The notes beneath the pieces were generated by a model. It searched no databases. It was not told the DNA's origin and saw nothing but the letters and a program-made list of their open reading frames with translations. Positions 10,475 through 52,523 of a stretch of DNA of 64,000 nucleotides are shown here, piece by piece (positions within the stretch are counted from its first letter, which is position 1; each line of letters starts with the position of its first letter). This DNA is from Nocardia salmonicida NBRC 13393 (lineage in GTDB: Bacteria > Actinomycetota > Actinomycetes > Mycobacteriales > Mycobacteriaceae). Made by a program: the position numbers and the translations under genes. The DNA lies in NCBI RefSeq assembly GCF_001613085.1, contig NZ_BDBR01000008.1, forward strand, positions 248,001 through 312,000. Reading direction: 5' to 3'.

Positions 10475-10565
10475 GGTGCGACCCTAGCGAGCGGGTGTGG
10501 AGGGTTGCGTCGCCAAATGTGGAGATTCTGTGTGGAGTGCACCCGCTGCCGCGGAACCCGAGGCG

Positions 10566-11246: not shown

Positions 11247-11284
11247 CGCACCTCCCTCACCGCTGGTGAACACACCTTGAAAGC

Positions 11285-11313
11285 TTGACACGAACCCTGG
11301 CGCTGGCATTAAT
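11285..11313 (+). promoter_or_regulatory. Candidate sigma70-type promoter of the ALDH-SDR operon
   Basis: TTGACA at 11285-11290 is followed after 17 bp by ATTAAT at 11308-11313. It directs transcription toward the aldehyde dehydrogenase and directly abuts the palindrome at 11316-11327, which would therefore sit over the transcription start. No transcript data are available. Confidence 0.5.
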
Positions 11314-33316: not shown

Positions 33317-33646
33317 ATGGCTACAGTCACGCAGCCGTCGGGGCCGCACACCATGATCTCCCGACGTGATTTCTCCGCAGCGAAAACAGCGATGACGCCG
33401 TCGGGTCTGGTGACTCTCGGGTTGATCTTGCTGATTCCCGTATTCATCACGGCGGGGCCGATTCTCGCGTTGGCGTTGATCGCGCGAAGTAACGGTGTCG
33501 GCTGGTCCGGCGGGGTGCTCTTCGGGGCCATCGCGACCGTCGTCGTCATGTCGGCACTGGCCTCGGTGTGGGCATTCCGCCTCGCGTGGCAGCGCGGTTC
33601 CGCCGCCGCGCGGCAGCACTCGTTCGGTTCTTCTCTCGCGCGGTAG
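33317..33646 (+). CDS. Small hypothetical membrane protein
   Basis: A 109-residue protein that I do not recognise. It has two hydrophobic helices, LVTLGLILLIPVFITAGPILALALI and a second from VLFGAIATVVVMSALASVWAF, with a hydrophilic N-terminal 30 residues. The ATG at 33317 follows GGAGAGGGCGG. The next gene starts 12 bp after the stop, with its AGGAGG site overlapping this stop codon, so the two are an operon. Confidence 0.6.
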   Translation: MATVTQPSGPHTMISRRDFSAAKTAMTPSGLVTLGLILLIPVFITAGPILALALIARSNGVGWSGGVLFGAIATVVVMSALASVWAFRLAWQRGSAAARQHSFGSSLAR

Positions 33647-33657
33647 GAGGTCGACAC

Positions 33658-34254
33658 ATGCAGACGCAACGACAAGCGGCGACGCCGCTCATCGAACCGC
33701 CCGCAGCCACCGCTGCGAACGAATGCCGCCGCCTGCGCATCGTCGCCCGGATCGAGTCGCCCGACCTGTGGGACTCGACCGCCGCCCGCCTGCTCGGCTG
33801 CGCCCGTCGGCGCTGGCAGGGCAGACCCGATATCGCCGATCACCCGGCCCTGCGCCGTTGGTCGCAGATCCAGGACTCCCAGCAACGGCCGGAACAGCCG
33901 TGCCTGCGCACGCTGTTCGCCGCCTTCGCCTCGGGTTCGCTGGTCGGCGGTGATCCCTGCGCCGACCTCGCCGCCGCGGTCATGCTCCTGTCGAGCTGCC
34001 CCGCCGAAGCGGTTCAGCAGGCCGACCCGCTCAACGATCAGCACACGGTGCGCTTCTCGGTGTTCGCCTACCGCGAAGACGACCTTCCCCTGGCCGAAGA
34101 CATGATCACCACCGCCGTCAAAACCTGCGGCACTCTGCTGGCTCGTCGCTGCACGATCATGCGCCCCCCGGCTCGTTCCACGGCTCCGCTCGTGGACCAC
34201 CCGATGCCGGACCAACTGGTCCTCGGCAACCTCGGCAGTACCGCCGCCCGCTGA
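33658..34254 (+). CDS. Hypothetical protein (unrecognised family)
   Basis: A 198-residue soluble protein without a recognised domain. It contains several cysteines (ECRR, LLGCARRR, QPCLRTLF, GDPCADL, SSCPAEA, KTCGTLLARRCT), mostly spread out and not forming an obvious metal site. The ATG at 33658 has a perfect AGGAGG. It forms a two-gene unit with the small membrane protein upstream and lies between helR and the terpenoid cluster; whether it belongs to either is unclear. Confidence 0.6.
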   Translation: MQTQRQAATPLIEPPAATAANECRRLRIVARIESPDLWDSTAARLLGCARRRWQGRPDIADHPALRRWSQIQDSQQRPEQPCLRTLFAAFASGSLVGGDPCADLAAAVMLLSSCPAEAVQQADPLNDQHTVRFSVFAYREDDLPLAEDMITTAVKTCGTLLARRCTIMRPPARSTAPLVDHPMPDQLVLGNLGSTAAR

Positions 34255-35018: not shown

Positions 35019-36068
35019 ATGGATAATCCCGCGCTACCCGCAGCACAACACTCCGGTGACCAGCACTCAGGCGACCGAGTGGTGGTCATGCCAAGGCCGG
35101 CCGGACCGGCCGAGCAACTGGCGCTCGTCACCGAACGGCTGCGGGAACTGCTCATCACCGGTGAAGACTTCGACGCGATCTACACCCACATCCTGGCCGC
35201 GCCCGGCAAACGCGTGCGGGCACGGCTCGTCCTGGCCTGCGCCGGCTTGCTGCCCGATGCCATCGATACCGCGGCCCCGCTGCGCGACGCCGTCGACCTC
35301 GCCTGCGCGATGGAGATGCTGCACGAATCCTCGCTGGTCCACGACGACATCTGCGACGGCTCGCTGCTGCGCCGTGACGCGCCGTCGGTGCCCGCCGCGT
35401 TCGGTGTCCGCACCAGCGCGCGGGCCGGGTTTCACCTGGCAGGCGCCGCGATGCAGGTGGTCGCGCGGGTGCTCACCGACAATCCGGAGGCCTTCGCGCG
35501 GGTCGGTGAGGCACCCGGCATCACCTACGCGGATCGGCTCTCCGACCTGTCCTACGGCCAGCTCATCGAGACCCTGCCGCCCTCGATCGACGAGCTCGCG
35601 CTGCGCCGTCACTACGAACTCGTGGCCGGGGCCAAGACCGGCACCCTGTTCCGGCTGTCCTGCGCCTACGGCGGCACCGCGGGCGGAGTCGATCTCGATC
35701 GGCTGCACGCCCTGATGGAGTACGCCGACCAGCTCGCGCTCGCCTTCCAGATCATGGACGACGTCCGCGACATCGAGGGCGGACCAGGCCTGGGCAAGGA
35801 CGCGGGCGGTGACCTCGAACGCCGCGTGCCGACCTGGCCGGTCATCGAATGGCTCGGCACGCGACCCGGAGCCCGTGAAATGTGGCTGGACGCGGAGATT
35901 TCCAGCGCGACCCTGCAAGAAGACCTGGTCGAGAGCGGTGCGACCAAAGCCGCCCGCCTGGTCGCGATGGACGCCACCGAGAAGGCCACCCGCGCCCTCG
36001 ACGTCTTCCCGCCTTCCCTCGCGCGCGACGACCTGCGCGAGCTCCTCGAGCAGGTGATATCCCGATGA
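35019..36068 (+). CDS. Polyprenyl diphosphate synthase (GGPP synthase type)
   Basis: A 349-residue trans-prenyl diphosphate synthase that condenses IPP with allylic diphosphates. It has GKRVRARLVL, the first Asp-rich motif D109-D110-I-C-D113 in LVHDDICDGS, GAKTGTLFRLS and the second Asp-rich motif D247-D248-V-R-D251 followed by GKDAGGD. Residues 4 and 5 before the first motif are small (SS), so chain length is not blocked at C15; GGPP or longer is expected. The ATG at 35019, preceded by AAAGGAG, is preferred to an ATG at 34944 without a site. Its stop overlaps the start of the next gene. It begins the terpenoid/mevalonate operon. Confidence 0.88.
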   Translation: MDNPALPAAQHSGDQHSGDRVVVMPRPAGPAEQLALVTERLRELLITGEDFDAIYTHILAAPGKRVRARLVLACAGLLPDAIDTAAPLRDAVDLACAMEMLHESSLVHDDICDGSLLRRDAPSVPAAFGVRTSARAGFHLAGAAMQVVARVLTDNPEAFARVGEAPGITYADRLSDLSYGQLIETLPPSIDELALRRHYELVAGAKTGTLFRLSCAYGGTAGGVDLDRLHALMEYADQLALAFQIMDDVRDIEGGPGLGKDAGGDLERRVPTWPVIEWLGTRPGAREMWLDAEISSATLQEDLVESGATKAARLVAMDATEKATRALDVFPPSLARDDLRELLEQVISR

Positions 36069-37327
36069 ACACACCACGCCTTCCCCTCCTGATCCGCGGC
36101 CTGCGGCACCTGCGTCGCGCACCGGATCTGGCCGCACTGCGAGCCGCGCGGACACCGCGGGAGCTGGCCGCGCTCGCCCTGATCCCGGCGGGGCGCAACC
36201 TCGGTATCGCCGTCACCCTGCTGCCCGCGACGTTGCGCGACGAAGCCACCGCCGCGCTGCTCGCCTGTCGCGTGCTCGACGCTTTCGAAGACCTCAGCGA
36301 CCGTGCGGTGGCCAGCGGTGCCGTGCTGGCGGCGGCGGATTACCTCAACGGTGTCAGCGACACCCTCCCGACGCCGCTACCCGCGCTCGAGGGCGAGATC
36401 CGCGACAGCGAAGCCGTCGATCGGGTACTCGCCGAGCGCATCGCCGACATCAGGGCACTGCTCACGGCATTGTCCGAGCGTGGCCGTGAGCGTGTCGGCC
36501 ACGTGCTCACCGATGTCGGCCGGGTGATGGCCCGCAATATCGACGCACCGCTGACCCGCGTCGCCTACAGCGAGGGCGTGCTCGGCCGGATCACCCACTA
36601 CGCGTGCGCCCTGGTCGCCGAAGATGTGCTGCCCGAAGCGGATCTGCGCGAGCTCACCGGCTGCGTGGCAGTGATCGCCCAGTCGGCCAACGACCTGCGC
36701 GACAACGAGCTCGCGATCTACGGCGCCGCCGACCGCGACGAACTCACGCGGATGGTGATGCTGCGCCAGCTCACCCCCGCCCTCGGCGGCTTCGCGCTAC
36801 TGGCCAAGCTCGGTCCCGGCACGCCGAGTGTGGGCGCGCGAGCGGCGATGGCGTACATGACGATCACGACCTCGGCATTCCTGTGCCGTGCCGTCGACGC
36901 GCCGCCTGCCTTCCGGCGCCCGGTCGCCGCGGCCGCGCTGGCCGCCGCCTCACCGGTGTACTGGACGAAGATGCTCGAGCGGGTACGCCGCAGCGGCGAC
37001 GCCGCGATCCATCAAATGCTGGATGCCTCACCGGATTTCACCACCGGCTCGGCTTCGGCGTCGCAGGTGCTCGGTGCGGGCGACCTCGCCTCGACGGAAA
37101 CCTCGTTGATGCCGCTGATCGTCGACACCACCTTCGCGCTGGTACACACGCTGCCCGAAGGTCGCTTGACCGGCGAACTCTCCGATTCGGCGATCCGCAC
37201 CATGATGATCGCCGATCACCTCGCCTTCGGTGCCATGGAGCGGGTACCGAACCACGAACCCGACGCGATCCGGGCGCTGGCCACACGGCTGCAGCTCGCC
37301 GCTCTCGACAACAGCAGCCACCAGTAA
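36065..37327 (+). CDS. Squalene/phytoene synthase-fold enzyme (divergent)
   Basis: A 420-residue class I isoprenoid synthase of the squalene/phytoene synthase type. The first Mg-binding motif is D72-A-F-E-D76 (DxxED) in CRVLDAFEDLSD, and the second is N-D210-L-R-D213 in SANDLRDNE. It is about 100 residues longer than ordinary bacterial CrtB and the rest is hard to align by eye. Expected chemistry is head-to-head condensation of two GGPP to a phytoene-like C40, but a C30 or C35 product or an unusual coupling is possible. Start codon overlaps the GGPP synthase stop (ATGA). No crtI or cyclase follows, which makes the product unusual. Confidence 0.8.
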   Translation: MNTPRLPLLIRGLRHLRRAPDLAALRAARTPRELAALALIPAGRNLGIAVTLLPATLRDEATAALLACRVLDAFEDLSDRAVASGAVLAAADYLNGVSDTLPTPLPALEGEIRDSEAVDRVLAERIADIRALLTALSERGRERVGHVLTDVGRVMARNIDAPLTRVAYSEGVLGRITHYACALVAEDVLPEADLRELTGCVAVIAQSANDLRDNELAIYGAADRDELTRMVMLRQLTPALGGFALLAKLGPGTPSVGARAAMAYMTITTSAFLCRAVDAPPAFRRPVAAAALAAASPVYWTKMLERVRRSGDAAIHQMLDASPDFTTGSASASQVLGAGDLASTETSLMPLIVDTTFALVHTLPEGRLTGELSDSAIRTMMIADHLAFGAMERVPNHEPDAIRALATRLQLAALDNSSHQ

Positions 37328-37377
37328 TCGAGGAACACCTCCTCGATGATCGTCACTACTAGCGAAGGAGCTCTCCT

Positions 37378-38373
37378 ATGAGCACCGGAACGCCCGTCGC
37401 GCCCACAGAGAAACCGCCGTTCAGCCGGCGCGTGTTCAAACTCGAGCACGCATCCAACGTCGGCCCGCTGCTCCACATCGCGTTGTGGATGGGCATGACC
37501 TCGGCCGCGCTGTTCATTCCAGGCACCTCGGCCTGGTACCTCGCGGTGCCACTGATCATCGTGCTCTCGCTGCTGAACCTCTCGCTGACCATCGGCGTGA
37601 TGCACATGCACACCCATCGCCCGCTGTTCGTGTCCAAGTTCCCCAATCGGGTGGTCGACATCCTGTGCTGCCTGCCCGGCAACCTGACCGCGGCCGAGAT
37701 GCGCGAGGTGCATGTCCTCAACCATCACCGGTTCAACGACGGCCCGGGTGATGTCACCGCGACCACCGGTCTGGACAAGGGCATCGGTGCCCTCTGGTAC
37801 TGGGTCCGCTACGGCATGGTCGTCAAGATCCACACGGTGCGTACGGTTTTCGCCGCGAACCCGGCGCCGCGTCGCCGGAAGACGCGCCACCAGTTCATCT
37901 TCGACCTGGCCGTGTACGCGGTCGTGATCGGTTCGGTCTGGTACGTCGCGGGCTTCGAGAAGTTCGTGCTCTTCTACTGGGTGCCGTTCCTCATCACCCA
38001 GGTCAACGCAGGCTACTTCGCCTGGCTGAGCCACGCTCCCGCGCGTGGATTCACCGATGAGCCGAGCACCTCGCTGAACAACGCGGGCAACATCCTCAAC
38101 TTCCTGATCTTCAACCAGGGCTACCACAGCGTGCACCACCGCTACCCCGGCATCCACTGGAGCCAGATCCCCGACAAGCTCGACTACATGCGCGACGTGA
38201 ACCCCGGCGTCATCGTGCCGTATTGGATGGTGGCGCAGTCGGGTTGGCGTCTGGTCGTGCCCGGCGGCTTCCTCAACGAGGGCTACGGCAACAAGTGGAA
38301 GGCGCGTCTGGAGACGCGTTTGGAGGCGGGCACCGTTCGTTCGCGTTTCCTGCCGTGGTTCGCATGGATCTGA
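37378..38373 (+). CDS. Membrane-bound di-iron fatty-acid-desaturase-family oxygenase
   Basis: A 331-residue membrane protein with four or more hydrophobic helices and three histidine clusters: HMHTH at residues 76-80, HVLNHH at 112-117 and HSVHH at 250-254, the arrangement of the desaturase/hydroxylase superfamily. In this operon the substrate is probably the polyprenoid made by the preceding two enzymes, which it would desaturate or hydroxylate; a lipid substrate cannot be excluded. AAGGAG precedes the ATG. Its TGA overlaps the next gene's ATG (TGATG). Confidence 0.87.
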   Translation: MSTGTPVAPTEKPPFSRRVFKLEHASNVGPLLHIALWMGMTSAALFIPGTSAWYLAVPLIIVLSLLNLSLTIGVMHMHTHRPLFVSKFPNRVVDILCCLPGNLTAAEMREVHVLNHHRFNDGPGDVTATTGLDKGIGALWYWVRYGMVVKIHTVRTVFAANPAPRRRKTRHQFIFDLAVYAVVIGSVWYVAGFEKFVLFYWVPFLITQVNAGYFAWLSHAPARGFTDEPSTSLNNAGNILNFLIFNQGYHSVHHRYPGIHWSQIPDKLDYMRDVNPGVIVPYWMVAQSGWRLVVPGGFLNEGYGNKWKARLETRLEAGTVRSRFLPWFAWI

Positions 38374-39161
38374 TGACACCGCAACAGGTTCGGGGCGTGG
38401 TGAAAACCCCCTCGCGGCTCGTCCCGTTCCTGTTCTCCTTCGCCGTCTACGGTGTCGCCGGAATCACGGTGCCGTTGATGCTGCTGTTCGCCGGCGGCTG
38501 GTGGTTGCCGAAGACGGTGGACAAGGGACAGCACCTGTCCACGGTTCCGGCGATCGCGATCGACCTCGTGCTGCTCGCGCTGTTCGCGCTGCAGCATTCG
38601 GGGATGGCTCGGCCCTCGTTCAAGGCCTTCATCACCCGCTGGGTGCCCGAGGCGCTCGAGCGGACCGTCTACATCATCGGCGTGTGCCTGGTGATGTGGG
38701 TGATCATGCTGGCGTGGCAGCCGGTGCCGCAGGTGCTGTGGTCGGCCGACGGTGCGGTCGGGGTGGCACTCGACACCGGATTCTGGATCGGTTTCGTGCT
38801 GGTCTACGCGGCTACCCTGTTGCTGAACCACTTTCACCTGCTCGGCATCAGCCAGGCCTACCGCCAGTACGTGATCCAGGTACCGGACGCGACGGTCGAC
38901 CGCCTGCAGGTGAACGGCGTCTACAAACTGGTTCGTCATCCGCTGATGACCGGATTGCTGGTGTCGTTCTGGTTCGCCAGTGAGTTCACCGTCGGGCATC
39001 TGGTGTGGGCCCTCGGGCTGACCGGGTACATCCTGCTCGGAACCTACCTCGAGGAGCGCGATCTCATTGCTCGGTTCGGTGCGTCCTATCGTGCCTACGC
39101 CGCGCAGGTACCCGCGTTCTTCCCGTCCGTGCGCGCCATTTTCGGCCGATCGTCTCGGTAA
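38373..39161 (+). CDS. MddA/NnrU-like integral membrane methyltransferase
   Basis: A 262-residue protein with about six membrane helices of the isoprenylcysteine-carboxyl-methyltransferase-like superfamily. LFALQHSGMARPSFK, VYKLVRHPLMTGLLVSFW and the terminal YLEERDLIARFGASYRAYAAQVPAFFP are typical of NnrU and methanethiol S-methyltransferase MddA, which bind SAM at the RHP/E-E-RDL region. In the terpenoid operon it may methylate a product of the BVMO or oxygenase. The TGATG overlap with the desaturase supports the ATG at 38373; an ATG at 38364 is also in frame. Confidence 0.75.
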   Translation: MTPQQVRGVVKTPSRLVPFLFSFAVYGVAGITVPLMLLFAGGWWLPKTVDKGQHLSTVPAIAIDLVLLALFALQHSGMARPSFKAFITRWVPEALERTVYIIGVCLVMWVIMLAWQPVPQVLWSADGAVGVALDTGFWIGFVLVYAATLLLNHFHLLGISQAYRQYVIQVPDATVDRLQVNGVYKLVRHPLMTGLLVSFWFASEFTVGHLVWALGLTGYILLGTYLEERDLIARFGASYRAYAAQVPAFFPSVRAIFGRSSR

Positions 39162-39197
39162 CCGGCACGGCCGGGCCGAGTCTGGAGAGGAATCGTC

Positions 39198-40244
39198 GTG
39201 AACAGTCCCGTTCGAGAACGTACTGAACACAGCTCCACAGCGACCGGCCCGGTCCGTGGCGTGGGTCGGGCCCACGCCAAGGCGATCCTGCTGGGCGAGC
39301 ACACCGTGGTACACGGCACGCCCGCCATCGCGTTCCCGCTGCCGACCCTGTCGGTGCGGGCGATCGCGCGTCCCGGCACGCCGGGTTCTGTCATCGAGGT
39401 TCCCGAAGGACATTTCGGGTTCGTCGCAGGCAACCCGAACGCCGTGGAGAACTCGCTGTCCGGTCCGCGCGTCGCGGTCGAGGAGGCGTTGCGGCGCTGG
39501 GGCCTGACCGGTCACATCGCCCATGTGGTGATGGAGTGCGATATTCCACTCGCTCGTGGGCTCGGATCGAGTGCGGCCTGCGCGGGTGCGGCGGTGCGCG
39601 CGGTCGCCGACCTGCACGGCCGGACCGTCGATTCCGTCACGCTCTACGAACTCGTGCAGTGCGGTGAACAGGTCGCGCACGGCAGGGCCAGCGGTATCGA
39701 CGCGAGCGCGGTGCTGGCCGACGGCCCGATCCGGTTCCACGAAGGAACCGCTACCGCGCTCGACATCGGTCTCGACGCCGCCCTGGTGATCGCCGATACC
39801 GGGGTGCCCGGGTCCACTCAGCACGCGGTCGGGGGAGTACGCCGCACGCTCGAGCGCGATCCGTGCTCCGCACGCCGACTCCTGGCGAGGGCGGACGAGC
39901 TGATCAGCGGTGCCGCGGCAGACCTCTCGGCCGGGCACGCCGACTCGCTGGGGCGAGTGATGCTCGACTTCCAGGACCTGCTCGCCGAACTCGGCGTCAG
40001 CACTCCGCACATCGATACCCTCGTCGCCGCGGCGCTCGACGCGGGCGCGTACGGCGCCAAACTCACCGGCGCCGGCCTCGGCGGCTGTGTCCTCGCGCTC
40101 ACCGAGACCGGTGACGCCCGCACCGTCAGCGCCGCATTGCGCCGCGCGGGCGCGGTACAGACCTGGACGGTCCCCACCCGCAGCCTGCGGTCCGGCGCGC
40201 AGTCCCTATCCGCCTCGACATCGGAACACGGTGCCAACCCATGA
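39198..40244 (+). CDS. mvk: Mevalonate kinase
   Basis: A 348-residue GHMP kinase that phosphorylates mevalonate. It has the N-terminal AHAKAILLGEHTVVHG, the ATP-binding PLARGLGSSAACAGAA motif and the C-terminal KLTGAGLGGCVLAL. The start is GTG at 39198 with GGAGAGGAA upstream. First gene of a mevalonate block whose order (MK, MDD, PMK, type II IDI, HMGR, HMGS) equals that of the known Streptomyces CL190-type clusters. Its stop overlaps the next start (ATGA). Confidence 0.93.
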   Translation: MNSPVRERTEHSSTATGPVRGVGRAHAKAILLGEHTVVHGTPAIAFPLPTLSVRAIARPGTPGSVIEVPEGHFGFVAGNPNAVENSLSGPRVAVEEALRRWGLTGHIAHVVMECDIPLARGLGSSAACAGAAVRAVADLHGRTVDSVTLYELVQCGEQVAHGRASGIDASAVLADGPIRFHEGTATALDIGLDAALVIADTGVPGSTQHAVGGVRRTLERDPCSARRLLARADELISGAAADLSAGHADSLGRVMLDFQDLLAELGVSTPHIDTLVAAALDAGAYGAKLTGAGLGGCVLALTETGDARTVSAALRRAGAVQTWTVPTRSLRSGAQSLSASTSEHGANP

Positions 40245-41302
40245 CTTTCACTCCCGCATCACCCGCGGCTACCGAACGTGGCGCCGTGACCGGGCCGTCC
40301 GCCGAGGCTGTCGCGGTCGCGTATCCGAATATCGCCCTGGTGAAGTACTGGGGTAAGCGGGACGAAGAGCTGTTCCTGCCCGTCACGGGCAGCCTGTCGA
40401 TGACCCTCGACATCTTCCCGACCACCACCTCGGTGCGGCTGATCGACGGACCGGCCGATGTCGTCGAGTTCAACGGTGTCACGGCGACCGGCGCCGCACG
40501 CGCCCGCATCGAATCGTTCCTGGATCTGGTGCGGGCCAAGGCAAATCGTGACGACCGTGCGATGGTGGTCACCGCCAACGCCGGGCCGACCGGCGCCGGT
40601 CTGGCCTCCTCGGCGAGCGGGTTCGCGGCGCTGGCCACCGCCGCGGCGGCCGCCTACGCGCTCGACGCCGACCCGCGCGCCCTGTCGCGACTGGCCCGAC
40701 GCGGTTCCGGTTCCGCCTCGCGCTCGATCTTCGGTGGATTCGTCGTCTGGCATGCCGGCGAGGGGGAGGGCGAAGCGGGGGACCTGAGTTCGTACGCGGA
40801 GCCCATCGGCGGCGACGAGCTGGATCCGGCCCTGGTGGTCGCCGTGGTGAATCAGGGCGCGAAGGCGGTCTCGAGCCGTGTCGCGATGCGGCAGACCACC
40901 GCCACGTCACCGTTCTATCGCCCATGGGCGGAATCGTCGGTGCTGGATCTGGCGGAGATGCGCAAGGCCGTCGCGCGGCAGGATCTTCCCGCGATCGGGG
41001 AGATCGCCGAGCGCAATGCCCTCGGCATGCACGCCACCATGCTCACCGCCCGGCCCGGAATCCGGTACCTGTCACCGCATTCGATCGCCATCCTCGACGC
41101 GGTGCTCGCACTGCGTGCCGACGGGATCATGGCGTACGCCACGATCGATGCGGGCCCGAACGTCAAAGTGCTGTGCACCCGTGCCGACGCGCCACGGGTC
41201 GACGCCGTATTGGACGGCCTCGGCGACTTCGTCACCACCCGGACCGCGCACATCGGTCCCGGCGCGTCCCTGACGGTGCCCGGTACGGGTGGTGATCGAT
41301 GA
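40241..41302 (+). CDS. mvaD: Diphosphomevalonate decarboxylase
   Basis: A 353-residue GHMP-family enzyme converting 5-diphosphomevalonate to IPP with ATP. Characteristic are AYPNIALVKYWGKRDEELFLP (substrate-binding region), FNGVTATGAARARI, TGAGLASSASGFAAL and ARRGSGSASRSIFGGFV. The Ser/Asp catalytic positions of the family appear conserved. ATG at 40241 overlaps the MK stop; its own stop overlaps the PMK start. Confidence 0.93.
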   Translation: MTFTPASPAATERGAVTGPSAEAVAVAYPNIALVKYWGKRDEELFLPVTGSLSMTLDIFPTTTSVRLIDGPADVVEFNGVTATGAARARIESFLDLVRAKANRDDRAMVVTANAGPTGAGLASSASGFAALATAAAAAYALDADPRALSRLARRGSGSASRSIFGGFVVWHAGEGEGEAGDLSSYAEPIGGDELDPALVVAVVNQGAKAVSSRVAMRQTTATSPFYRPWAESSVLDLAEMRKAVARQDLPAIGEIAERNALGMHATMLTARPGIRYLSPHSIAILDAVLALRADGIMAYATIDAGPNVKVLCTRADAPRVDAVLDGLGDFVTTRTAHIGPGASLTVPGTGGDR

Positions 41303-42381
41303 CCAGTTGTCGCGCTCCCGGCAAGCTCTTCATCGCCGGTGAATACGCCGTGGTCGAGCCGGGACACCTCGCGGTGCTCACGGCGGTCGATCGTTATGCC
41401 ACCGCCACGGTGACCGGAGTGGATTCCGACCAGGACATCACCCTGTATTCGGATCTGGACGGCGGGATCGCCCTGTCCTGCCGTCGTCACGGTGACGAGT
41501 TGATACCCACTCCCGATGCTGTGGTGCCAGAGGAATTCTCCTACGTTTTCGCAGCGGCTTCGGTAGTGCACCGTCTGCTCGTGGAGCGTGCGATCCCCGT
41601 ATCGTCTTTCCACCTGAGCGTCACCGCCGACCTCGGCGACGCCGACGGTCGCAAGTTCGGCTTGGGTTCCAGCGCGGCTGTCACGGTGGCCACCGTCGCC
41701 GCCCTCGGGCAACACTTCGCTCTCGGCCTCGATGCGATGGATCGCTACCGGTTGGCCATGCTCGCCACCATCGCGGTCAATCCCCGCGCTTCGGGCGGCG
41801 ACATCGCCGTGAGCACCTGGGGCGGCTGGCTCGCCTACCGGTCCCCGGACCGCGCGCAGGTGGCGGCGTCACTGGCCCGCGACGGCGTCGAGGCCACCCT
41901 GCGCGCACCGTGGCCAGGCCTGTCGGTTCGCCCGCTGCCCACCCCCACCGAGCTCACCCTGCAGGTCGGCTGGACCGGAAACCCGGCCTCCACGCCTGCC
42001 CTGGTCGCCGGACTCGACGGTGACCGCACCACCTTCCGGGCGCACAGCAACGAGTGTGTCGAACGACTCGTCGTCGCCATCGAGGCCGACGACTCCCACG
42101 CTGTTCGTCTCGAAATCGACAGCGCCCGAACACTGCTCGTCGACCTCGACGCGATGTCGGGTCTGGGCATCATGACCCCGCGTCTGCACGCGCTGTGTGA
42201 CGCGGGCGCCGCGGTCGGCGCTGCGGCGAAGCCCTCGGGTGCCGGTGGCGGGGACTGTGGAATCGCGCTCATCGAACGCACCCGTCCCGCCGCGATCGCC
42301 GAACTCACGGGCCGTTGGATCACCGCCGGAATTCGTCCGCTGCCCCTGCGGACCCACCCAGTCGAAGGGGACCATCGATGA
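41299..42381 (+). CDS. Phosphomevalonate kinase
   Basis: A 360-residue GHMP kinase phosphorylating mevalonate 5-phosphate. Features are RAPGKLFIAGEYAVVEPGHLAV at the N-terminus, FGLGSSAAVTVATVAAL and KPSGAGGGDCGIALI at the C-terminus, the usual bacterial PMK pattern. Overlaps both neighbours by 4 bp. Assignment between PMK and MK is secured by both motif pattern and position between MDD and IDI. Confidence 0.92.
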   Translation: MTSCRAPGKLFIAGEYAVVEPGHLAVLTAVDRYATATVTGVDSDQDITLYSDLDGGIALSCRRHGDELIPTPDAVVPEEFSYVFAAASVVHRLLVERAIPVSSFHLSVTADLGDADGRKFGLGSSAAVTVATVAALGQHFALGLDAMDRYRLAMLATIAVNPRASGGDIAVSTWGGWLAYRSPDRAQVAASLARDGVEATLRAPWPGLSVRPLPTPTELTLQVGWTGNPASTPALVAGLDGDRTTFRAHSNECVERLVVAIEADDSHAVRLEIDSARTLLVDLDAMSGLGIMTPRLHALCDAGAAVGAAAKPSGAGGGDCGIALIERTRPAAIAELTGRWITAGIRPLPLRTHPVEGDHR

Positions 42382-43475
42382 TCGCCGATCGCAAGGACGA
42401 CCACGTCCGCCACGCGGTGAACCACCAACGCCAGGCCACCGGTAGCAGTGACTTCGACTCCGTCACTTTCGTTCACCACGCACTCGCGGGCATCGACGCC
42501 GACGAGGTCTCCCTCGCGGTAGACGTCGCTGGAAAGCAGTGGGCCACACCACTGTTCGTCAACGCGATGACCGGTGGCAGTACCAAGACCGGCGAGATCA
42601 ATCGCCAGCTCGCCATCGCCGCCCGCGAGACCGGCATCCCGATCGCCTCCGGATCGATGAGCGCCTACTTCCGTGATCCGTCGGTCGCGGGCACCTATCG
42701 CGTGCTGCGGCAGGAGAATCCGCACGGATTCGTGATGGCCAATGTGAATGCGAACGCGACCGTCGACCAGGTGCGCAGCGCCGTCGATCTCCTCGAAGCC
42801 GATGCGTTGCAGATCCATCTCAACGCCGTGCAGGAAGTGGTCATGCCCGAGGGTGACCGCTCGTTCGGGTCGTGGCCGCGTCGGATCGAGGAAATCGTCG
42901 CCGCTACCGCCGTGCCGGTCTTCGTCAAAGAAGTCGGGTTCGGACTGAGCAGACAGACCGTCAGCTGGTTGCGCGACGCGGGCGTGGCCGTGGCCGACGT
43001 GGGTGGGCGCGGCGGTACCAATTTCGCGCGCATCGAGAACGATCGGCGGGTAGGCGGCGACTTCGGGTTCATCGAGAGCTGGGGCCAGTCCACCCCGAAC
43101 TGCCTGCTCGACTGCGCCGACCTCCCCGGCATCGATATCGCCGCGTCCGGCGGCATCCGCTCGCCACTGGACATCGCGCGCGCACTCGCGTTGGGCGCCG
43201 ACGCGACCGGTGTCGCCGGCGCGTTCCTGGAAACCCTGGTCAGCCACGACACCGCCGCCCTGGTCGACAAGATCGGGACCTGGCTCGACCAACTGCGCAC
43301 CATCCTCACCGTGCTCGGCGCCCGCACGCCGGCGGATCTGGTCGGTGCCGACCTGCTCGTCACCGGCGAGGTCGCGAGCTTCTGCCAACTTCGCGGTATC
43401 GACGCCGCGGCACTCGCCCACCGGAGCCCCTGGTGGCGTGAATCCGAACATCGAGAAGGAGTCACCCATGAATGA
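42378..43475 (+). CDS. fni: Type II isopentenyl-diphosphate isomerase (FMN-dependent)
   Basis: A 365-residue TIM-barrel flavoenzyme that interconverts IPP and DMAPP, using FMN and NADPH. Features are MIADRKDDHVRHA, NAMTGGSTKTGEINRQLA, GSMSAYFRDPS, NANATVDQV, LQIHLNAVQEVVMPEGDRSF (active-site region), FVKEVGFGLSRQT, DVGGRGGTNFA and AASGGIRSPLDIARAL (phosphate-binding). The ATG at 42378 overlaps the PMK stop. Normal length for the family. Confidence 0.94.
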   Translation: MIADRKDDHVRHAVNHQRQATGSSDFDSVTFVHHALAGIDADEVSLAVDVAGKQWATPLFVNAMTGGSTKTGEINRQLAIAARETGIPIASGSMSAYFRDPSVAGTYRVLRQENPHGFVMANVNANATVDQVRSAVDLLEADALQIHLNAVQEVVMPEGDRSFGSWPRRIEEIVAATAVPVFVKEVGFGLSRQTVSWLRDAGVAVADVGGRGGTNFARIENDRRVGGDFGFIESWGQSTPNCLLDCADLPGIDIAASGGIRSPLDIARALALGADATGVAGAFLETLVSHDTAALVDKIGTWLDQLRTILTVLGARTPADLVGADLLVTGEVASFCQLRGIDAAALAHRSPWWRESEHREGVTHE

Positions 43476-44526
43476 CATGTCGTACGCGGCGGTGCCGATG
43501 CAGTGGGTGGGACCTGTGCGCATTACCGGAAACGTCGTCGACGATGCCGTCGACGTTCCTCTCGCCACCTACGAGACCCCGCTGTGGCCTTCGGTCGGAC
43601 GCGGCGCGCGGATCAGCACCCTGGCGGAGAAGGGCATCGTCGCGACGCTGATCGACGAGCGGATGACGCGCTCGATCCTGTTGGAGGCCGACGACGCGTA
43701 CACCGCCTACACCACGGTCCAGCAGTTAGAAGGCCGCATGGCCGAGCTCCAGGAGGTGGTCTCGGGCAGTAGTCGTTTCGCCCGGCTCATCGACCTGCAC
43801 CATCAGATCACCGGCAACCTACTGTTTCTGCGCTTCGAATTCACCACCGGTGACGCGTCGGGCCACAACATGGCGACCCTGGCCAGCGATCACCTGATGG
43901 ATCACATCCTGTCGACCATGCCCGGTGTGCGCTACGGCTCGATCTCGGGCAACTATTGCACCGACAAGAAGGCCACCGCGGTCAACGGCATCCTGGGTCG
44001 CGGTAAGAACGTGATCACCGAACTGCTCATCCCACGCGAGGTGGTCGAGCAGCGGCTGCACACCACCGCGGCGCAGGTGGTGCAGCTCAATATCCGCAAG
44101 AACCTGATCGGCACCCTGCTGGCGGGTGGAATCCGTTCCGCCAACGCGCATTACGCCAACATGCTGCTCGCGTTCTATCTGGCCACCGGTCAGGACGCCG
44201 CCAATATCGTCGAAGGATCCCAGGGCATCACCCATGCCGAGGATCGCGACGGCGACCTCTACTTCTCGTGCACCCTGCCCAACCTGATCGTGGGCACGGT
44301 CGGCAACGGCAAGCACGCGAGTTTCGTCGACGAGAACCTGGAACGCCTCGGCTGCCGCGAAGACCGGCAGCCCGGCGAGAACGCCCGACGCCTCGCGGTG
44401 ATCGGAGCGGCCACCGTGCTGTGCGGGGAGCTGTCGCTGATGGCGGCACAGACCAATCGCGGTGAATTGATGCGTGCCCATACCCAATTCGAGCGGTCCA
44501 CCACGAGCAACGGAATCTCACGATGA
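43468..44526 (+). CDS. Hydroxymethylglutaryl-CoA reductase (class I, Streptomyces type)
   Basis: A 352-residue NADPH-dependent reductase producing mevalonate. It carries TGDASGHNMAT (in place of DAMGMN), SGNYCTDKKATAVNGILGRGK with catalytic Lys, GTVGNGK and LCGELSLMAAQTNRGELMRAH. The length and lack of membrane domain match the soluble Streptomyces CL190 class I enzyme. The general-acid GHL motif of eukaryotic enzymes reads GEL here, as I recall it does in the Streptomyces relatives. ATG at 43468 overlaps the isomerase stop by 8 bp and follows GAGAAGGAG. Stop overlaps HMGS. Confidence 0.9.
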   Translation: MNDMSYAAVPMQWVGPVRITGNVVDDAVDVPLATYETPLWPSVGRGARISTLAEKGIVATLIDERMTRSILLEADDAYTAYTTVQQLEGRMAELQEVVSGSSRFARLIDLHHQITGNLLFLRFEFTTGDASGHNMATLASDHLMDHILSTMPGVRYGSISGNYCTDKKATAVNGILGRGKNVITELLIPREVVEQRLHTTAAQVVQLNIRKNLIGTLLAGGIRSANAHYANMLLAFYLATGQDAANIVEGSQGITHAEDRDGDLYFSCTLPNLIVGTVGNGKHASFVDENLERLGCREDRQPGENARRLAVIGAATVLCGELSLMAAQTNRGELMRAHTQFERSTTSNGISR

Positions 44527-45695
44527 CAACTACGCCGGTCGGTATCCACGACCTTTCGTTCGCCACCACCCATTACGCTCTCGATCACGCCGTCCTCGCC
44601 GAGCGACTCGGCGTGGATCGCGACAAGTTCTACCTCGGCATCGGCCAGGAGAAGATGAGCGTCGCCGCCGCCGACGAGGACATCGTCACCATCGCCGCGG
44701 CTGCCGCCAAGCCGATTCTGGAGCGGCACGGCACCGACAACATCCGCACCGTGCTGCTGGCTACCGAGACCGGTGTCGACCAGTCCAAAGCCGCCGCGCT
44801 GTACCTGCATTCGCTGATCGGGCTGCCCAACGCCGCCCGTGTCGTCGAGCTCAAGCAGGCCTGCTACGGCGGCACCGCCGGGCTGCAGTTCGCGGCGGGC
44901 CTGATCGCCCGCGACCCGTCGCAGCGGGTGCTGGTCATCGCCGCCGACATCGCCAAGTACGAACTCGACACCCCGGGTGAGCCGACCCAGGGCGCCGCCG
45001 CCGTCGCGATGCTGGTCACCGCGGACCCGGCGATCCTGGCACTCGACCCGATCTCGGGGCTCTACAGCGCCGACATCATGGACTTCTGGCGCCCGAACTA
45101 CCGCACCGAAGCCATCGTGGACGGCAAGACCTCGGTCAACGCCTACCAGAAGGCCGCCCAGGAGGCGTGGACCGACTACCGCCGCCAGGGCGGTCGTGAA
45201 CTCGGTGAGTTCGCCGCGTTCTGCTACCACCAGCCCTTCACCAAGATGGCCTACAAGGCACACCGGCACCTGCTCGAGAGCCAGGGCCACACCGCCGATG
45301 CCGAGGCCATCGAGGCCGCGATCGGCGCCACGACCACCTACAACCGCACGGTCGGCAACAGCTACACCGCCTCGCTCTATCTGGGCTTGGCCTCGCTGCT
45401 CGACCACGCCGACGACCTCACCGACAAGGCGCTGGCCATGATCAGCTACGGGTCGGGCAGCGTCGCCGAATTCTTCAGTGGCACCGTGCAGCCCGGCTAC
45501 CGCGCGCACCTGCGGACAGAGGCGAACCTGGCGACGATCAGCTCGCGTGAGCTGCTCGGGTACGAGCGCTACCGGGACCTGCACGAGGCCACCTCGCCCA
45601 GCGACGGCGCCTACCACGCCATGGTCGAGGAGACTCGCCGCCCATACCGGCTCGCCGCCGTCTCCGGTCACAAACGCATCTACGAATCCCGCTGA
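44523..45695 (+). CDS. Hydroxymethylglutaryl-CoA synthase
   Basis: A 390-residue thiolase-fold enzyme condensing acetyl-CoA and acetoacetyl-CoA. It shows GIGQEKMSVAAADEDI, ATETGVDQSKAA, the catalytic Cys114 in ELKQACYGGTAGL, FCYHQPF with the catalytic His, and TVGNSYTASLYLGLASLLD. ATG at 44523 overlaps the HMGR stop. Last mevalonate-pathway gene; the first monooxygenase begins 9 bp later. Acetoacetyl-CoA synthase (NphT7-type) is not present in the cluster. Confidence 0.94.
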   Translation: MTTTPVGIHDLSFATTHYALDHAVLAERLGVDRDKFYLGIGQEKMSVAAADEDIVTIAAAAAKPILERHGTDNIRTVLLATETGVDQSKAAALYLHSLIGLPNAARVVELKQACYGGTAGLQFAAGLIARDPSQRVLVIAADIAKYELDTPGEPTQGAAAVAMLVTADPAILALDPISGLYSADIMDFWRPNYRTEAIVDGKTSVNAYQKAAQEAWTDYRRQGGRELGEFAAFCYHQPFTKMAYKAHRHLLESQGHTADAEAIEAAIGATTTYNRTVGNSYTASLYLGLASLLDHADDLTDKALAMISYGSGSVAEFFSGTVQPGYRAHLRTEANLATISSRELLGYERYRDLHEATSPSDGAYHAMVEETRRPYRLAAVSGHKRIYESR

Positions 45696-45704
45696 GGTCG
45701 CCCC

Positions 45705-47186
45705 ATGAGCAGTAACGACACACGCCACGTCCAGGTCATGATCGTGGGCAGTGGGCTGTCCGGCCTCGGCACCGCCATCCGGCTGAGCCAGCGTGGCCTG
45801 TCCGACTTCGTGGTCATCGAACGCGGCCCCGATGTCGGCGGGACCTGGCGCGACAACACCTATCCGGGTGCGGGCTGCGATGTGCCCTCGCACCTGTACT
45901 CGTATTCGTTCGCGCTCAATCCTGATTGGTCCCGGTCGTTCTCGCCCCAGCCGGAGATCGAGCAGTACCTGCGCACCGTGTCCGAACGCTACGGCGTTCG
46001 CGACAAGCACATCTTCGACTGCGCGCTGACCGCGGCCCGCTGGAACGATGCCGACCGCCGGTGGGATATCGAGACCAGCAAGGGCACCTTCACCGCCGAC
46101 TTCATCGTCTCGGCGGCGGGCGTGCTCGCCGAGCCGAAGCTTCCGGATATCAAGGGCATCTCGAGCTTCGAGGGCGAGGTCTTCCACTCCGCGCGCTGGA
46201 ACCACGACGCTACTCTGGCCGGCAAGAAGGTCGCCGTCATCGGCACCGGATCCTCGGCGGTGCAGATCGTCCCATCGATCGCGCCCGAGGTGGAGCACCT
46301 GGACGTGTACCAGCGCACCGCCACCTGGGTGATGCCGCAGATCTCGCGGCCGTACCTGGGGCTGGAACGATTCGCCTTCAAGCGGATTCCGGGTCTGCAA
46401 CGGTTGATCCGGGCGCTGATCTACATCACGCGTGAGCTGTTCGTGATCACGCAGGTGAAGTACCCGTGGACCGGCATCGTGCTGGAAACGGTCGGGCGAT
46501 TCAAGATGCGCTTCGAGATCCGGGACCCGGAGTTGCGGCGAAAAGTGCTGCCCCAGCACCGGATCGGCTGTAAGCGCATGCTCGTGTCGAACAAGTTCTA
46601 CGGCGCGCTCGATCGCGACAACGTCGACGTCGTCACCGACGGCATCGCCGAGGTTCGCAGCGGGTCGATCGTGTCCGAGGACGGCACGGAGCGGGAGGTG
46701 GACGCCATCGTGCTCGCCACCGGTTTCCACGTTGCCGATTCGCCGACGTTCAACCTGTACACCGGTCGCGACGGCCGGACCGTGTCCGAGGCGGCCGATG
46801 CCGAGGGCTACCAGATGTACAAGGGCACGACCGTCTCGAATTTCCCGAACATCTTCTTCATGCTCGGCGCCAACTCCGGGTTGAACTACACCTCGCTGAT
46901 CTACATCATCGAATCCCAGATCAACTACATCGTCGACGCGATCACCACGATGGAGCAGCGCAACCTGCAGTCCTTCGAGGTCCGCCTGGACGCGCAGGTC
47001 GAATACAACGACAAGCTCCAGCCGAAGATGGCCCGCACCGTGTGGGTCAACGGCGGCTGCACCAGCTGGTTCCTCGACAACCATGGCAACAACTCCGCGC
47101 TGTGGCCGGACTTCAGCTTCAAATATCGGCGCATGGTGCGGAAGTTCGACATCGACGCCTACGACACCACCACGAAGACACTGTGA
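45705..47186 (+). CDS. Baeyer-Villiger-type FAD monooxygenase (first of a pair)
   Basis: A 493-residue flavoprotein monooxygenase with an FAD-binding VGSGLSGLGTAIRL motif, GGTWRDNTYPGAGCDVPSHLYSYSF, the BVMO fingerprint FxGxxxHxxxW at residues 155-165 and an NADPH-binding VIGTGSSAVQIVPSI motif; ATGFHVADS follows. It would insert oxygen next to a ketone or oxygenate a heteroatom. ATG at 45705 with a GAGG site, 9 bp after HMGS; stop overlaps the next gene (GTGA). Substrate is probably the cluster's terpenoid. Confidence 0.9.
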   Translation: MSSNDTRHVQVMIVGSGLSGLGTAIRLSQRGLSDFVVIERGPDVGGTWRDNTYPGAGCDVPSHLYSYSFALNPDWSRSFSPQPEIEQYLRTVSERYGVRDKHIFDCALTAARWNDADRRWDIETSKGTFTADFIVSAAGVLAEPKLPDIKGISSFEGEVFHSARWNHDATLAGKKVAVIGTGSSAVQIVPSIAPEVEHLDVYQRTATWVMPQISRPYLGLERFAFKRIPGLQRLIRALIYITRELFVITQVKYPWTGIVLETVGRFKMRFEIRDPELRRKVLPQHRIGCKRMLVSNKFYGALDRDNVDVVTDGIAEVRSGSIVSEDGTEREVDAIVLATGFHVADSPTFNLYTGRDGRTVSEAADAEGYQMYKGTTVSNFPNIFFMLGANSGLNYTSLIYIIESQINYIVDAITTMEQRNLQSFEVRLDAQVEYNDKLQPKMARTVWVNGGCTSWFLDNHGNNSALWPDFSFKYRRMVRKFDIDAYDTTTKTL

Positions 47187-48661
47187 CCGCATCGCAGGGG
47201 CGCCACACCCGCGTCGCGATCATCGGTGCCGGGTTCGCCGGGTTGGGTGTGGCTATTCGCTTGCGCCAGTTGGGTATCACCGACTTCGTCGTCTTCGAAC
47301 GCGGCAGTGATGTCGGCGGTACGTGGCGTGACAACACCTATCCCGGCGCCGGGTGCGATGTGCCCTCGCAGCTGTATTCGTATTCGTTCGCCCCCAATCC
47401 GGACTGGACGCACTCGTTCTCGACACAGCCGCAGATCCAGCGGTACATCCAGGACGCGGTCGACCGGCACGGGGTCCGCGATGCGGTCGTCCTCGAGTGC
47501 GAGGTCACCGACGCGCGGTGGAACGACGCCACCGCGCGGTGGGAGATCCAGACCGGCGACGGCGCCTACACCGCCGAGATCATGGTGTCGGCGGCCGGCC
47601 CGCTGAGTGCCCCGAATCTGCCCGATATCAAGGGCATCAACACTTTTCGTGGTCCGATCTTCCACTCCGCGCGCTGGGATCACGAGTTCGAGCTCGCGGA
47701 AAAGCGCGTCGCGGTCATCGGTACCGGCGCGTCCGCGATCCAGATCGTGCCGTCGATCGCGGGCGAGGTCGCCCGGCTCGACCTCTATCAGCGCAGCGCG
47801 CCGTGGGTGCTGCCGCGGATGGGCCGCAAGTACACCTGGCTGGAGCGGCTGTACTACCGGCGAGTTCCGGGTGCGCAGCGGCTGGCCCGGCTCGGGGTGT
47901 ACTGGGTGCGTGAGTCTTTCGTGCTCTGGCAGTCCAAGTACCCACCGCTCGCCGACTTCTTCTCGTTCGGTGCGCGGATCAAGATGTGGTCGGTGATCCG
48001 GGATCGGGAGCTGCGCCGCAAGCTCACCCCCGGCTACCGTCTCGGGTGCAAGCGCATGCTGATCTCGAACGTCTACTACCCCGCGCTGGCCCGCGACAAT
48101 GTCGAGGTCGTCGTCGACGGCATCGCCGAGATCCGCGAACACTCGATCGTCGCCGACGACGGCACCGAACGCGAAGTCGACGCCGTCGTGCTGGCCACGG
48201 GCTTCCGGATCACCGACTCGCCGACCTACGACCTGATCAGCGGGCGTGACGGGCGCACCCTGTCTGAGGTATTCGGCGCCGAGGGCATCAGCGGGTACAA
48301 GGGCACGACCATCGCGAACTTCCCGAATCTGTTCGTGATGATCGGCCCGAACTCCGCGTTGAGCTACACCTCGGCGGTGTTCACCATCGAATCCCAGATC
48401 AACTACATCATCGACGCCGTCACGACGATGACGACCGGTGGCCTGCGCAGCGTCGAGGTCCGCGAGGACGTGCAGGCCGCCTACAACCGGGACCTGCAGA
48501 AGAAATTCGACGGCACCGTCTGGAACACGGGCGAATGCACCAGCTGGTTCGTCGACGAGAACGGCCATAACGCCACCCTGTGGCCGGATTTCAGCTACCG
48601 GTTCCATCGGATGCTGAAGACCTTCGATGTCGAGGCCTACGAGACGACCCGGTCAGAATGA
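47183..48661 (+). CDS. Baeyer-Villiger-type FAD monooxygenase (second of a pair)
   Basis: A 492-residue sister of the preceding enzyme with the same motifs: IIGAGFAGLGVAIRL, GGTWRDNTYPGAGCDVPSQLY, the FxGxxxHxxxW fingerprint again at residues 155-165, and VIGTGASAIQIVPSI. The colinear motif positions show that the two arose by duplication, but they have diverged widely, which suggests different substrates or successive steps. GTG at 47183 overlaps the preceding stop. Last gene of the operon; its stop overlaps by 9 bp the stop of the opposing stressosome phosphatase gene. Confidence 0.9.
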   Translation: MTASQGRHTRVAIIGAGFAGLGVAIRLRQLGITDFVVFERGSDVGGTWRDNTYPGAGCDVPSQLYSYSFAPNPDWTHSFSTQPQIQRYIQDAVDRHGVRDAVVLECEVTDARWNDATARWEIQTGDGAYTAEIMVSAAGPLSAPNLPDIKGINTFRGPIFHSARWDHEFELAEKRVAVIGTGASAIQIVPSIAGEVARLDLYQRSAPWVLPRMGRKYTWLERLYYRRVPGAQRLARLGVYWVRESFVLWQSKYPPLADFFSFGARIKMWSVIRDRELRRKLTPGYRLGCKRMLISNVYYPALARDNVEVVVDGIAEIREHSIVADDGTEREVDAVVLATGFRITDSPTYDLISGRDGRTLSEVFGAEGISGYKGTTIANFPNLFVMIGPNSALSYTSAVFTIESQINYIIDAVTTMTTGGLRSVEVREDVQAAYNRDLQKKFDGTVWNTGECTSWFVDENGHNATLWPDFSYRFHRMLKTFDVEAYETTRSE

Positions 48662-51010: not shown

Positions 51011-51116
51011 CGGCAACCTCTCATCGGCCCGGTTCGGGGGAACAGGCCGCGGTGTCGTGGCCTCGGGAAAGAGGTCCACGGAACAGGGGCGCACGCAGTG
51101 GTGCGACGTCGGGGCC

Positions 51117-52513: not shown

Positions 52514-52523
52514 GGTGGCTTGG

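Follow-up and report, generated by a model that had tools for sequence, protein, structure and literature searches.

A packed Nocardia salmonicida operon combining a mevalonate pathway with a predicted divergent squalene-synthase-like protein

The window, that is, the whole 64,000-nucleotide stretch of Nocardia salmonicida NBRC 13393 DNA analyzed here, contains twelve tightly packed open reading frames on the + strand at positions 35019-48661 (Table 1). The earlier note had described twelve packed same-strand genes, and this is confirmed by the coordinates of the reading frames and by family searches. The prenyl synthase gene overlaps by 4 bp the gene of the squalene-synthase-like protein (SQSL), a gap of 50 bp precedes the desaturase, and the latter overlaps the MddA-like methyltransferase by 1 bp, or by 10 bp counting from the ATG at 38364. 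After a gap of 36 bp, the MVK, MDD, PMK and IDI-2 genes overlap successively by 4 bp, IDI-2 and HMGR by 8 bp, and HMGR and HMGS by 4 bp. The first monooxygenase gene (BVMO1) lies 9 bp after HMGS and overlaps the second (BVMO2) by 4 bp. No RNA elements were found at the gathering score. The upstream genes at 33392 and 33658 are doubtful members of the operon, because six called genes separate both from it in a related locus (L063).

Table 1. Genes of the operon, with positions in the window and the match on which each assignment is based.
Gene product	Coordinates	Strand	Evidence
trans-Prenyl diphosphate synthase, GGPPS-like	35019..36068	+	PF00348 polyprenyl_synt, 150 bits
SQSL, divergent squalene-synthase-like, 420 aa	36065..37327	+	PF00494, 14.2 bits; family profile; predicted model; motifs
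Membrane fatty-acid-desaturase-superfamily enzyme, weakly CrtR-like	37378..38373	+	PF00487 FA_desaturase, 120 bits
MddA-like membrane methyltransferase	38373..39161	+	NF045656, 217 bits (cut-off 270)
Mevalonate kinase (MVK)	39198..40244	+	GHMP kinase N and C domains
Diphosphomevalonate decarboxylase (MDD)	40241..41302	+	TIGR01240, 297 bits (cut-off 171)
Phosphomevalonate kinase (PMK)	41299..42381	+	TIGR01220, 384 bits (cut-off 166)
Type 2 isopentenyl diphosphate isomerase (IDI-2)	42378..43475	+	FMN_dh, 56 bits
HMG-CoA reductase (HMGR)	43468..44526	+	PF00368, 276 bits
HMG-CoA synthase (HMGS)	44523..45695	+	TIGR01835, 509 bits (cut-off 360)
BVMO/FMO-like monooxygenase 1	45705..47186	+	6er9 match, E 8e-67
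BVMO/FMO-like monooxygenase 2	47183..48661	+	FMO-like, 65 bits

Six genes form the mevalonate set: HMGS, HMGR, MVK, PMK, MDD and an IPP isomerase, all assigned by family matches; the isomerase we take to be of type 2, partly from its position. Actinobacterial terpenoid mevalonate operons of the Streptomyces CL190 type have the order MVK-MDD-PMK-IDI2-HMGR-HMGS, which is also that of the window. The gene set is the same, and here it sits inside the SQSL operon; unlike the CL190-type operons, no thiolase or NphT7-type gene occurs among the twelve. The set begins at HMG-CoA synthase, with no acetoacetyl-CoA thiolase among the twelve genes, and the self-sufficient cluster with a full mevalonate pathway claimed previously is better described as nearly self-supplying, complete from HMGS to IDI-2. 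These enzymes would convert acetoacetyl-CoA to IPP and DMAPP. The HMGR of the operon is the sole HMGR match in the genome, and DXS is located elsewhere. This single HMGR and the separate DXS support the view of the operon as a dedicated, nearly self-supplying polyprenoid pathway.

The comparison covers 46 loci, namely the window, 37 actinobacterial loci picked by their SQSL and eight fetched loci. L085 and L086 are apparently duplicates of L058 and L055, which leaves about 44 distinct loci, and some species or metagenome-assembled genomes (MAGs) contribute two of the 37. The genes of the related loci were called by an in-house codon-model caller and not by a published gene finder. One locus, L076, was omitted from the comparison and from the counts of ATGA overlaps and MMPL genes. 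The dN/dS values are simple Nei-Gojobori estimates from three sets of 5, 4 and 6 loci, and the set of six was drawn from 22 Nocardia loci; the PEP-synthase of L067 has an in-frame stop and its row was excluded.

The prenyl synthase precedes SQSL in 37/37 of the SQSL-picked loci, followed in the same order by a desaturase-like gene (32/37) and an MddA-like gene (31/37). These four genes are the conserved core, which occurs in Nocardia, Rhodococcus, several mycobacteria and one gammaproteobacterial contig, the latter with the same first three genes and a different methyltransferase. Since the same order recurs in many species, the arrangement is not due to chance. The mevalonate genes and the BVMOs are accessories. 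The former are present in 22 of the 37 loci, all 22 of them from Nocardia, where MVK is the first mevalonate gene, and the BVMO pair is found in two of the six loci with room for it. In L051 the core is followed by a gene that, judged by eye, is DXS-like. The tree drawn for the order of mevalonate gain and loss suffers from very long branches and an unsettled bootstrap.

The prenyl synthases of the related loci carry the motifs DDICD and DDVRD, the first without insertion, and the window protein has the same motifs. Among the loci listed, Ser or Ala occupies the position five residues before the first DDxxD. By the usual rules for such synthases, neither residue there blocks the formation of longer chains. 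The GGPP-type synthase of the earlier note stands as a prenyl synthase with both DDxxD motifs, and GGPP as its product is presumptive. The stop codon of this gene overlaps the start of SQSL as ATGA in the window, as in 33 of the 34 loci scored; the other three of the 37 (L054, L073 and L074) went unscored, their called gene having no literal DDICD. The best NCBIfam match of this first gene is the cargo-4 prenyl synthase model of family 2 encapsulins, but at 129 of 450 bits, and a role as encapsulin cargo was set aside.

The desaturase contains the histidine boxes HMHTH, HVLNHH and HSVHH, scores 41 of 475 bits against the CrtR model and is 42-43% identical to its counterpart in the gammaproteobacterial locus. 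A phmmer search of the PDB gave no match for it, and the one profile match (E 0.039) is an unrelated lipid-transfer protein. Homologues occur in two of 296 genomes of the phylum, its own included; the other has no called gene at that place and uninformative neighbors. The methyltransferase, previously described as MddA/NnrU-like, matches the MddA equivalog NF045656 with 217.4 bits, below the cut-off. The best PDB match of its family profile, the isoprenylcysteine carboxyl methyltransferase 4a2n (E 0.11), is not significant. The two Baeyer-Villiger-type monooxygenases are upheld by their BVMO/FMO-like family and by the match of BVMO1 residues 9-218 to cyclohexanone monooxygenase (6er9). Type I Baeyer-Villiger monooxygenases have the fingerprint FxGxxxHxxxW(P/D). 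BVMO2 carries it exactly (FRGPIFHSARWD), whereas BVMO1 departs from it in the last place, an N (FEGEVFHSARWN); the two proteins are 60% identical.

The central component of the operon is SQSL, which scores below the cut-off of 26 bits for the Pfam family SQS_PSY; a search of its own genome with this family misses it. A first profile of 18 rows gave nothing meaningful against the PDB (best E 0.49). The squalene synthase matches arose only with a wider profile of 38 rows, whose top eight matches are all squalene synthases (E 2.3e-5 for Trypanosoma cruzi and 0.004 for human). The predicted model used (pLDDT 85.8) supersedes an earlier one (pLDDT 74.5), and its residues 28-339 superpose on residues 36-369 of human squalene synthase with Z 24.1 and 3.3 Å over 285 residues; the match to CrtM is weaker (Z 16.6). 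Foldseek gives TM-scores of only about 0.4-0.5 by query length and rmsd values of 5.7-13.5 Å against squalene synthases, to which the sequence identity is about 15%. Two distant relatives from the profile search (E 5.5e-21 and 8.1e-18) have a more canonical second motif and match the HpnD and squalene synthase models weakly, at 32-38 bits, below cut-off. Plasmid records searched with SQSL gave no match.

Squalene synthase catalytic residues named in PMC4823828 include Ser51, Ser53, Tyr171 and Gln212, and the same source describes the lycopaoctaene synthase (LOS) of Botryococcus race L, a squalene synthase fold able to join two GGPP. With these enzymes SQSL has in common the fold, the first DXXED (D72-A-F-E75-D76) and the residues corresponding to Tyr171 and Gln212 (Y168 and Q206 in the profile alignment, invariant in 38 rows); in addition, it adjoins a prenyl synthase. 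It differs from them in having no equivalents of Ser51 and Ser53, which are Gly43 and Asn45 in the same alignment, in keeping half of the second DXXED, and in belonging to a bacterial operon with tailoring genes. The second motif is RDNELA in the window and RDxE family-wide, its last two acids being gone, and in the family it is rewritten to NDLRDxE; the equivalent of Tyr73 is Leu65. Along with Y168 and Q206, the residues R44, R69, E75, N209 and R212 are invariant. D72 and D76 are both kept in 33 of 38 rows, and the five exceptions, all from one mycobacterial clade with AfsA-type loci, have lost the active-site aspartates. CrtB and CrtM share with SQSL the superfamily and the NxxRD core; unlike them, SQSL falls below the Pfam cut-off, reaches only the lower Z with CrtM and has no linked crtI-type desaturase or cyclase. 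As judged from its profile and predicted model, SQSL is a divergent branch of the squalene synthases and not a phytoene synthase. The earlier squalene/phytoene-synthase assignment therefore holds on the squalene synthase side, with changed catalytic residues.

In the pathway that we favor, the first gene would provide an all-trans prenyl diphosphate of C20 or longer. At its first DXXED, which is intact, SQSL would ionize this diphosphate and then couple two chains head to head, like squalene or lycopaoctaene synthase; the altered second metal site probably changes how the cyclopropyl intermediate is handled. Subsequently, the di-iron membrane enzyme may hydroxylate, ketonize or desaturate the chain, the MddA-like enzyme may methylate an O, S or acid group (both substrates are guesses), and the BVMOs, where present, may insert oxygen. 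The operon would thus be dedicated to a specialized metabolite, a methylated and oxidized acyclic head-to-head isoprenoid lipid, a proposal that we judge to be close to an even call and slightly on the doubtful side. MMPL genes are found in 15 of the 37 loci, compared with about 18 in the 8.25 Mb of the N. salmonicida genome; these 15 loci are interrelated and do not count as separate events, and for the MMPL of L054 tblastn finds no match in the window. The presence of these genes beside several related loci suggests export of the product to the cell envelope.

The loss of the Ser51, Ser53 and Tyr73 equivalents and of the second DXXED acids means that head-to-head coupling could itself be lost or replaced. 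Because the second metal site is rewritten, the NDLRDxE proteins might stand apart within the squalene synthase family as a new catalytic branch that converts long prenyl diphosphates by a new reaction. Mycolic-acid bacteria would then make a class of isoprenoid lipid so far unseen, and in one mycobacterial clade the enzyme would have become a pseudoenzyme beside the prenyl synthase. This broader proposal is possible, and we would sooner doubt than accept it.

The same changes in the second motif and in the three lost residues would also suit a non-canonical class I terpene synthase, in which one diphosphate is ionized to a cyclic or linear terpene that the tailoring genes decorate. Abe et al. 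2024 (PMC11234867) report that Streptomyces, Mycobacterium and Nocardia contain non-canonical terpene synthases adjoining prenyl synthases. The search rule of that study also fits SQSL, which could be one of its types and may already have been screened in it. The classes ID-IF and SQSL share the location beside prenyl synthases, the concealment from family models and the ND pair of the second motif. On the other hand, SQSL has neither D(N/D) nor RXXKD of class ID, only ND (N209-D210). Moreover, the squalene synthase match of residues 28-339 is far above those to plant terpene synthases (Z 9.6), class IB enzymes (9.8-9.9) and sestermobaraene synthase (10.7), and we regard a terpene synthase as unlikely, if still a serious contender.

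Alternatively, SQSL might attach the prenyl chain to an acceptor that is not itself a prenyl compound, as carbazole prenyltransferases do, which would yield a meroterpenoid. CqsB4 and LvqB4 share the fold (Z 13.9-14.1, with 13.9 for CqsB4), and in five mycobacterial loci the prenyl synthase-SQSL pair lies beside AfsA-, PEP-synthase/RedH-, P450- and, by eye, UbiA-like genes. However, no acceptor-making gene is seen in the Nocardia, Rhodococcus or MmpL-type operons, and the SQSL of the AfsA-type loci is an unlikely transferase because its catalytic acids are lost. Altogether, this route is improbable.

The genome also holds a carotenoid cluster on another contig, with crtB identified by Pfam and crtE-, crtI- and crtYc/Yd-like genes by eye, and a second prenyl synthase-SQSL pair, a paralogue, ends about 4 kb before it. 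Five crt genes of the genome were searched by tblastn (E 1e-8) against the window and 45 other SQSL loci; crtI, crtB and crtYc/Yd had no match there, whereas the positive control, L083, itself the paralogue locus, was found. Linkage to crtI, named previously as a sign of an ordinary carotenoid, thus applies in part, for the paralogue pair, and not to the window and the 45 loci. The tblastn result bears out the earlier claim that phytoene desaturase and lycopene cyclase are missing from the window; for terpene cyclases the claim is borne out within the operon and 20 flanking genes, all scanned with Pfam. A carotenoid-oxygenase-family gene fills the fourth (methyltransferase) slot in L064, a MAG, and another lies in pieces near one other locus; the apocarotenoid-like product proposed earlier retains this hint only. 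An ordinary carotenoid cluster is rejected because the crt genes are unlinked in the window and the 45 loci, and an ordinary carotenoid pathway completed by a desaturase and cyclase elsewhere in the genome, to which the nearby paralogue pair and the L064 gene lend something, is very improbable given that the carotenoid cluster has crtE- and crtB-like genes of its own and that SQSL scores below PF00494.

We considered KS-505a/longestin as a presumed relative of the operon. Among the papers listed, judged by title and opening of the abstract and with few subscription journals included, none seemed to deal with this operon and no characterized relative was found, in agreement with the earlier statement that no characterized cluster has this set.

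In Nocardia, Rhodococcus, several mycobacteria and one gammaproteobacterial contig, the second gene of a conserved pathway thus belongs to a protein family that the standard models overlook. If the head-to-head product that we favor is true, these bacteria would make an envelope or secreted lipid not yet described. If the product of SQSL is other than head-to-head, the protein would be a new kind of terpene-forming enzyme.

The operon of twelve genes is tentatively read as a dedicated pathway to a methylated, oxidised acyclic head-to-head isoprenoid lipid. Its genes overlap or lie at most 50 bp from their neighbours, within an assembly of 8.25 Mb. The closest named relatives of the window genes are from Nocardia, with N. 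alba (91%) nearest for gene 2, which codes for the divergent squalene-synthase-like protein SQSL. Among the matches listed, judged by titles and abstract openings, no publication describes the operon, which is apparently undescribed as far as these tell.

The genes flanking the operon look unrelated to it. The small upstream genes 33392 and 33658 gave no Pfam match, and 46 loci, the window among them, include 12 with a relative of the first and 8 with a relative of the second; in L063, another locus with an SQSL homologue, six called genes intervene between these relatives and the operon. Directly downstream, Pfam identifies SpoIIE/RsbU- and STAS-type regulatory genes grouped in one block, to which a gene judged anti-sigma-like by eye also belongs; the first gene of the block shares 9 bp with the last operon gene.

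Coordinates of the features in the window and in the related loci
Feature	Location	Strand	Content
Operon	window, 35019-48661	+	polyprenyl synthase, SQSL, FA_desaturase, MddA-like, MVK, MDD, PMK, IDI-2, HMGR, HMGS, two BVMO-like
Upstream genes	window, 33392-34254		two small genes
Downstream protein	window, 48653-51178	-	PAS/SpoIIE/ATPase (Pfam)
Downstream block	window, 48653-53429	-	regulatory genes
Paralogue locus L083	G000:C2:158000-177999		second prenyl synthase-SQSL pair
L076 core	L076, 8880-13219		first three genes in the window order, then a methyltransferase
L051 sequence	L051, 18918-20311		carotenoid-oxygenase-like, three pieces
AfsA-type gene set	five mycobacterial loci, about 1-11,300		MMPL, UbiA-like, P450, PEP-synthase/RedH-like, AfsA-like (conserved)

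SQSL scores 14.2 bits against Pfam SQS_PSY (cut-off 26), and the search of its own genome with this family found two other places, the SQSL gene being absent from the results. Within the genus, 29 of 150 genomes have relatives; a family sample has them in 8 of 301 genomes (2 of 31 genera) and a phylum sample in 3 of 396, namely the source genome and two distant ones. A single pass over 84,980 collected species genomes gave 38 loci. A first profile (18 rows) found nothing meaningful among the PDB sequences. The eight best matches of a wider profile (38 rows) were squalene synthases, with E-values from 2.3e-5 (T. cruzi) to 0.0065 (a human one). The structure model built with the 38-row alignment (mean pLDDT 85.8) aligned in VIA-align with 22 squalene synthase entries at Z 22.5-24.1, with CrtM-type rows at 15.7-16.6, with the carbazole prenyltransferases LvqB4 and CqsB4 at 14.1 and 13.9, and at 11.1 or less with the remaining rows among the matches listed. 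Foldseek likewise ranked squalene synthases at the top, with query-length TM-scores of just about 0.4-0.5. SQSL and the squalene-synthase-type families are bridged by two distant actinobacterial proteins (L081 and L082). Both retain SF in the first helix as well as RDIE followed by an acid at +4, and their matches to the HpnD and squalene synthase models are weak (32-38 bits, below cut-off).

By profile alignment and motif table, the squalene synthase positions matched in SQSL are R44, R69, D72, E75, D76, Y168, Q206, N209, R212 and D213. The profile alignment also places G43, N45, L46 and L65 at Ser51, Ser53, Phe54 and Tyr73 of the human numbering. In place of the second DXXED stands RDxE, with an extra D210. 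PMC4823828 lists catalytic roles for both DXXED motifs and for Ser51, Ser53, Tyr171 and Gln212. In its fold and first metal site SQSL is thus like squalene synthase, but it departs from it in two listed catalytic features and is filed as a divergent branch rather than as a squalene synthase. Its second metal site is the chief doubt about the head-to-head reading. The main rival, a non-canonical cyclising synthase, is rather unlikely. Abe et al. 2024 (PMC11234867) screened proteins near prenyl synthases (Streptomyces, Mycobacterium, Nocardia); their types 2-4 showed no activity in a single test at a single condition, and SQSL may be among their types.

Five mycobacterial loci (L061, L067, L068, L070 and L075) contain the prenyl synthase and SQSL and lack the desaturase and the MddA-like gene. 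The pair is divergent from AfsA-, PEP-synthase/RedH-, P450- and UbiA-like genes (UbiA by eye), and the gene set looks like an undescribed biosynthetic cluster. The five SQSL form a single tree group (support 100/100), and each has lost at least one active-site acid by differing substitutions: D72 is replaced by H, N or R, or else D76 and D213 are both replaced by S or N. All three acids are intact in the remaining 33 of 38 rows. Since the median dN/dS of these SQSL (0.48) exceeds that of five neighbour genes of these loci (0.20-0.33) and that of SQSL in four mycobacterial (0.20) and six Nocardia loci (0.27), and the matched reading frames are still open, constraint appears relaxed, not absent. 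Decay or a non-catalytic role is suggested.

The SQSL of the paralogue locus in the source genome is 73% identical, with motifs intact. No desaturase-like gene adjoins this pair, and about 4 kb after its end a carotenoid cluster begins (crtE-, crtI-, crtB- and crtYc/Yd-like genes). The carotenoid-oxygenase-like sequence near the SQSL operon of L051, a Mycobacterium MAG, is possibly a broken gene.

Of the 37 loci, 22 have mevalonate genes, and all of these carry Nocardia in the title; the 15 others lack them (Mycobacterium, Mycolicibacter, Mycolicibacterium, Rhodococcus and the two SZAS-8 loci). In L051, reading the sequence points to a DXS-like gene downstream of the core and of a BVMO-like gene. 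The mevalonate pathway of the source genome looks dedicated to the operon because the sole HMGR sits within it and a full-length DXS lies elsewhere.

The tandem BVMO-like genes share 60% identity. Six Nocardia loci extend 4 kb or more beyond HMGS: the window and its 94% relative L090 have two copies, three loci have one and one has none, and the BVMOs look like late, optional steps. MMPL genes occur in 15 of 37 loci, immediately after the MddA-like gene in four mycobacteria. The source genome has 35 MMPL half-domain matches, or about 18 genes per 8.25 Mb, so that about 5% of 21 kb stretches would be expected to carry one, a source-genome base rate that mycobacterial genomes may surpass. Because loci are related, the MMPL-bearing ones reduce to about five separate contexts. 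In one locus, L054, the MMPL had no match in the window.

The loci were chosen by SQSL, whose presence is thus true by construction. All 37 actinobacterial loci have the prenyl synthase; 32 of them have the desaturase and 31 the MddA-like gene. With eight fetched loci and the window added (46 loci, about 44 distinct, some counts being reduced by locus ends), the prenyl synthase is found in 46, the desaturase in 40, the MddA-like gene in 39, MVK in 30, and HMGS and BVMO-like genes in 28 each. An ATGA is common to the prenyl synthase stop and the SQSL start in 33 of 34 loci scored. The core of L076, a gammaproteobacterial MAG contig, shows identities of 26% (prenyl synthase), 26-31% (SQSL) and 42-43% (desaturase), and the desaturase end overlaps the start of the methyltransferase that follows. 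Beyond this core, the other strand carries a Rieske protein weakly like methylsterol monooxygenase and, by eye, ABC-transporter-like genes. The fourth slot holds the MddA-like gene in the majority of loci, a carotenoid-oxygenase-family protein (378 bits to RPE65) in L064 and, in L076, an unrelated class I SAM methyltransferase. Because the fourth-slot gene is swapped between loci, the arrangement suggests one pathway whose finishing steps are exchangeable.
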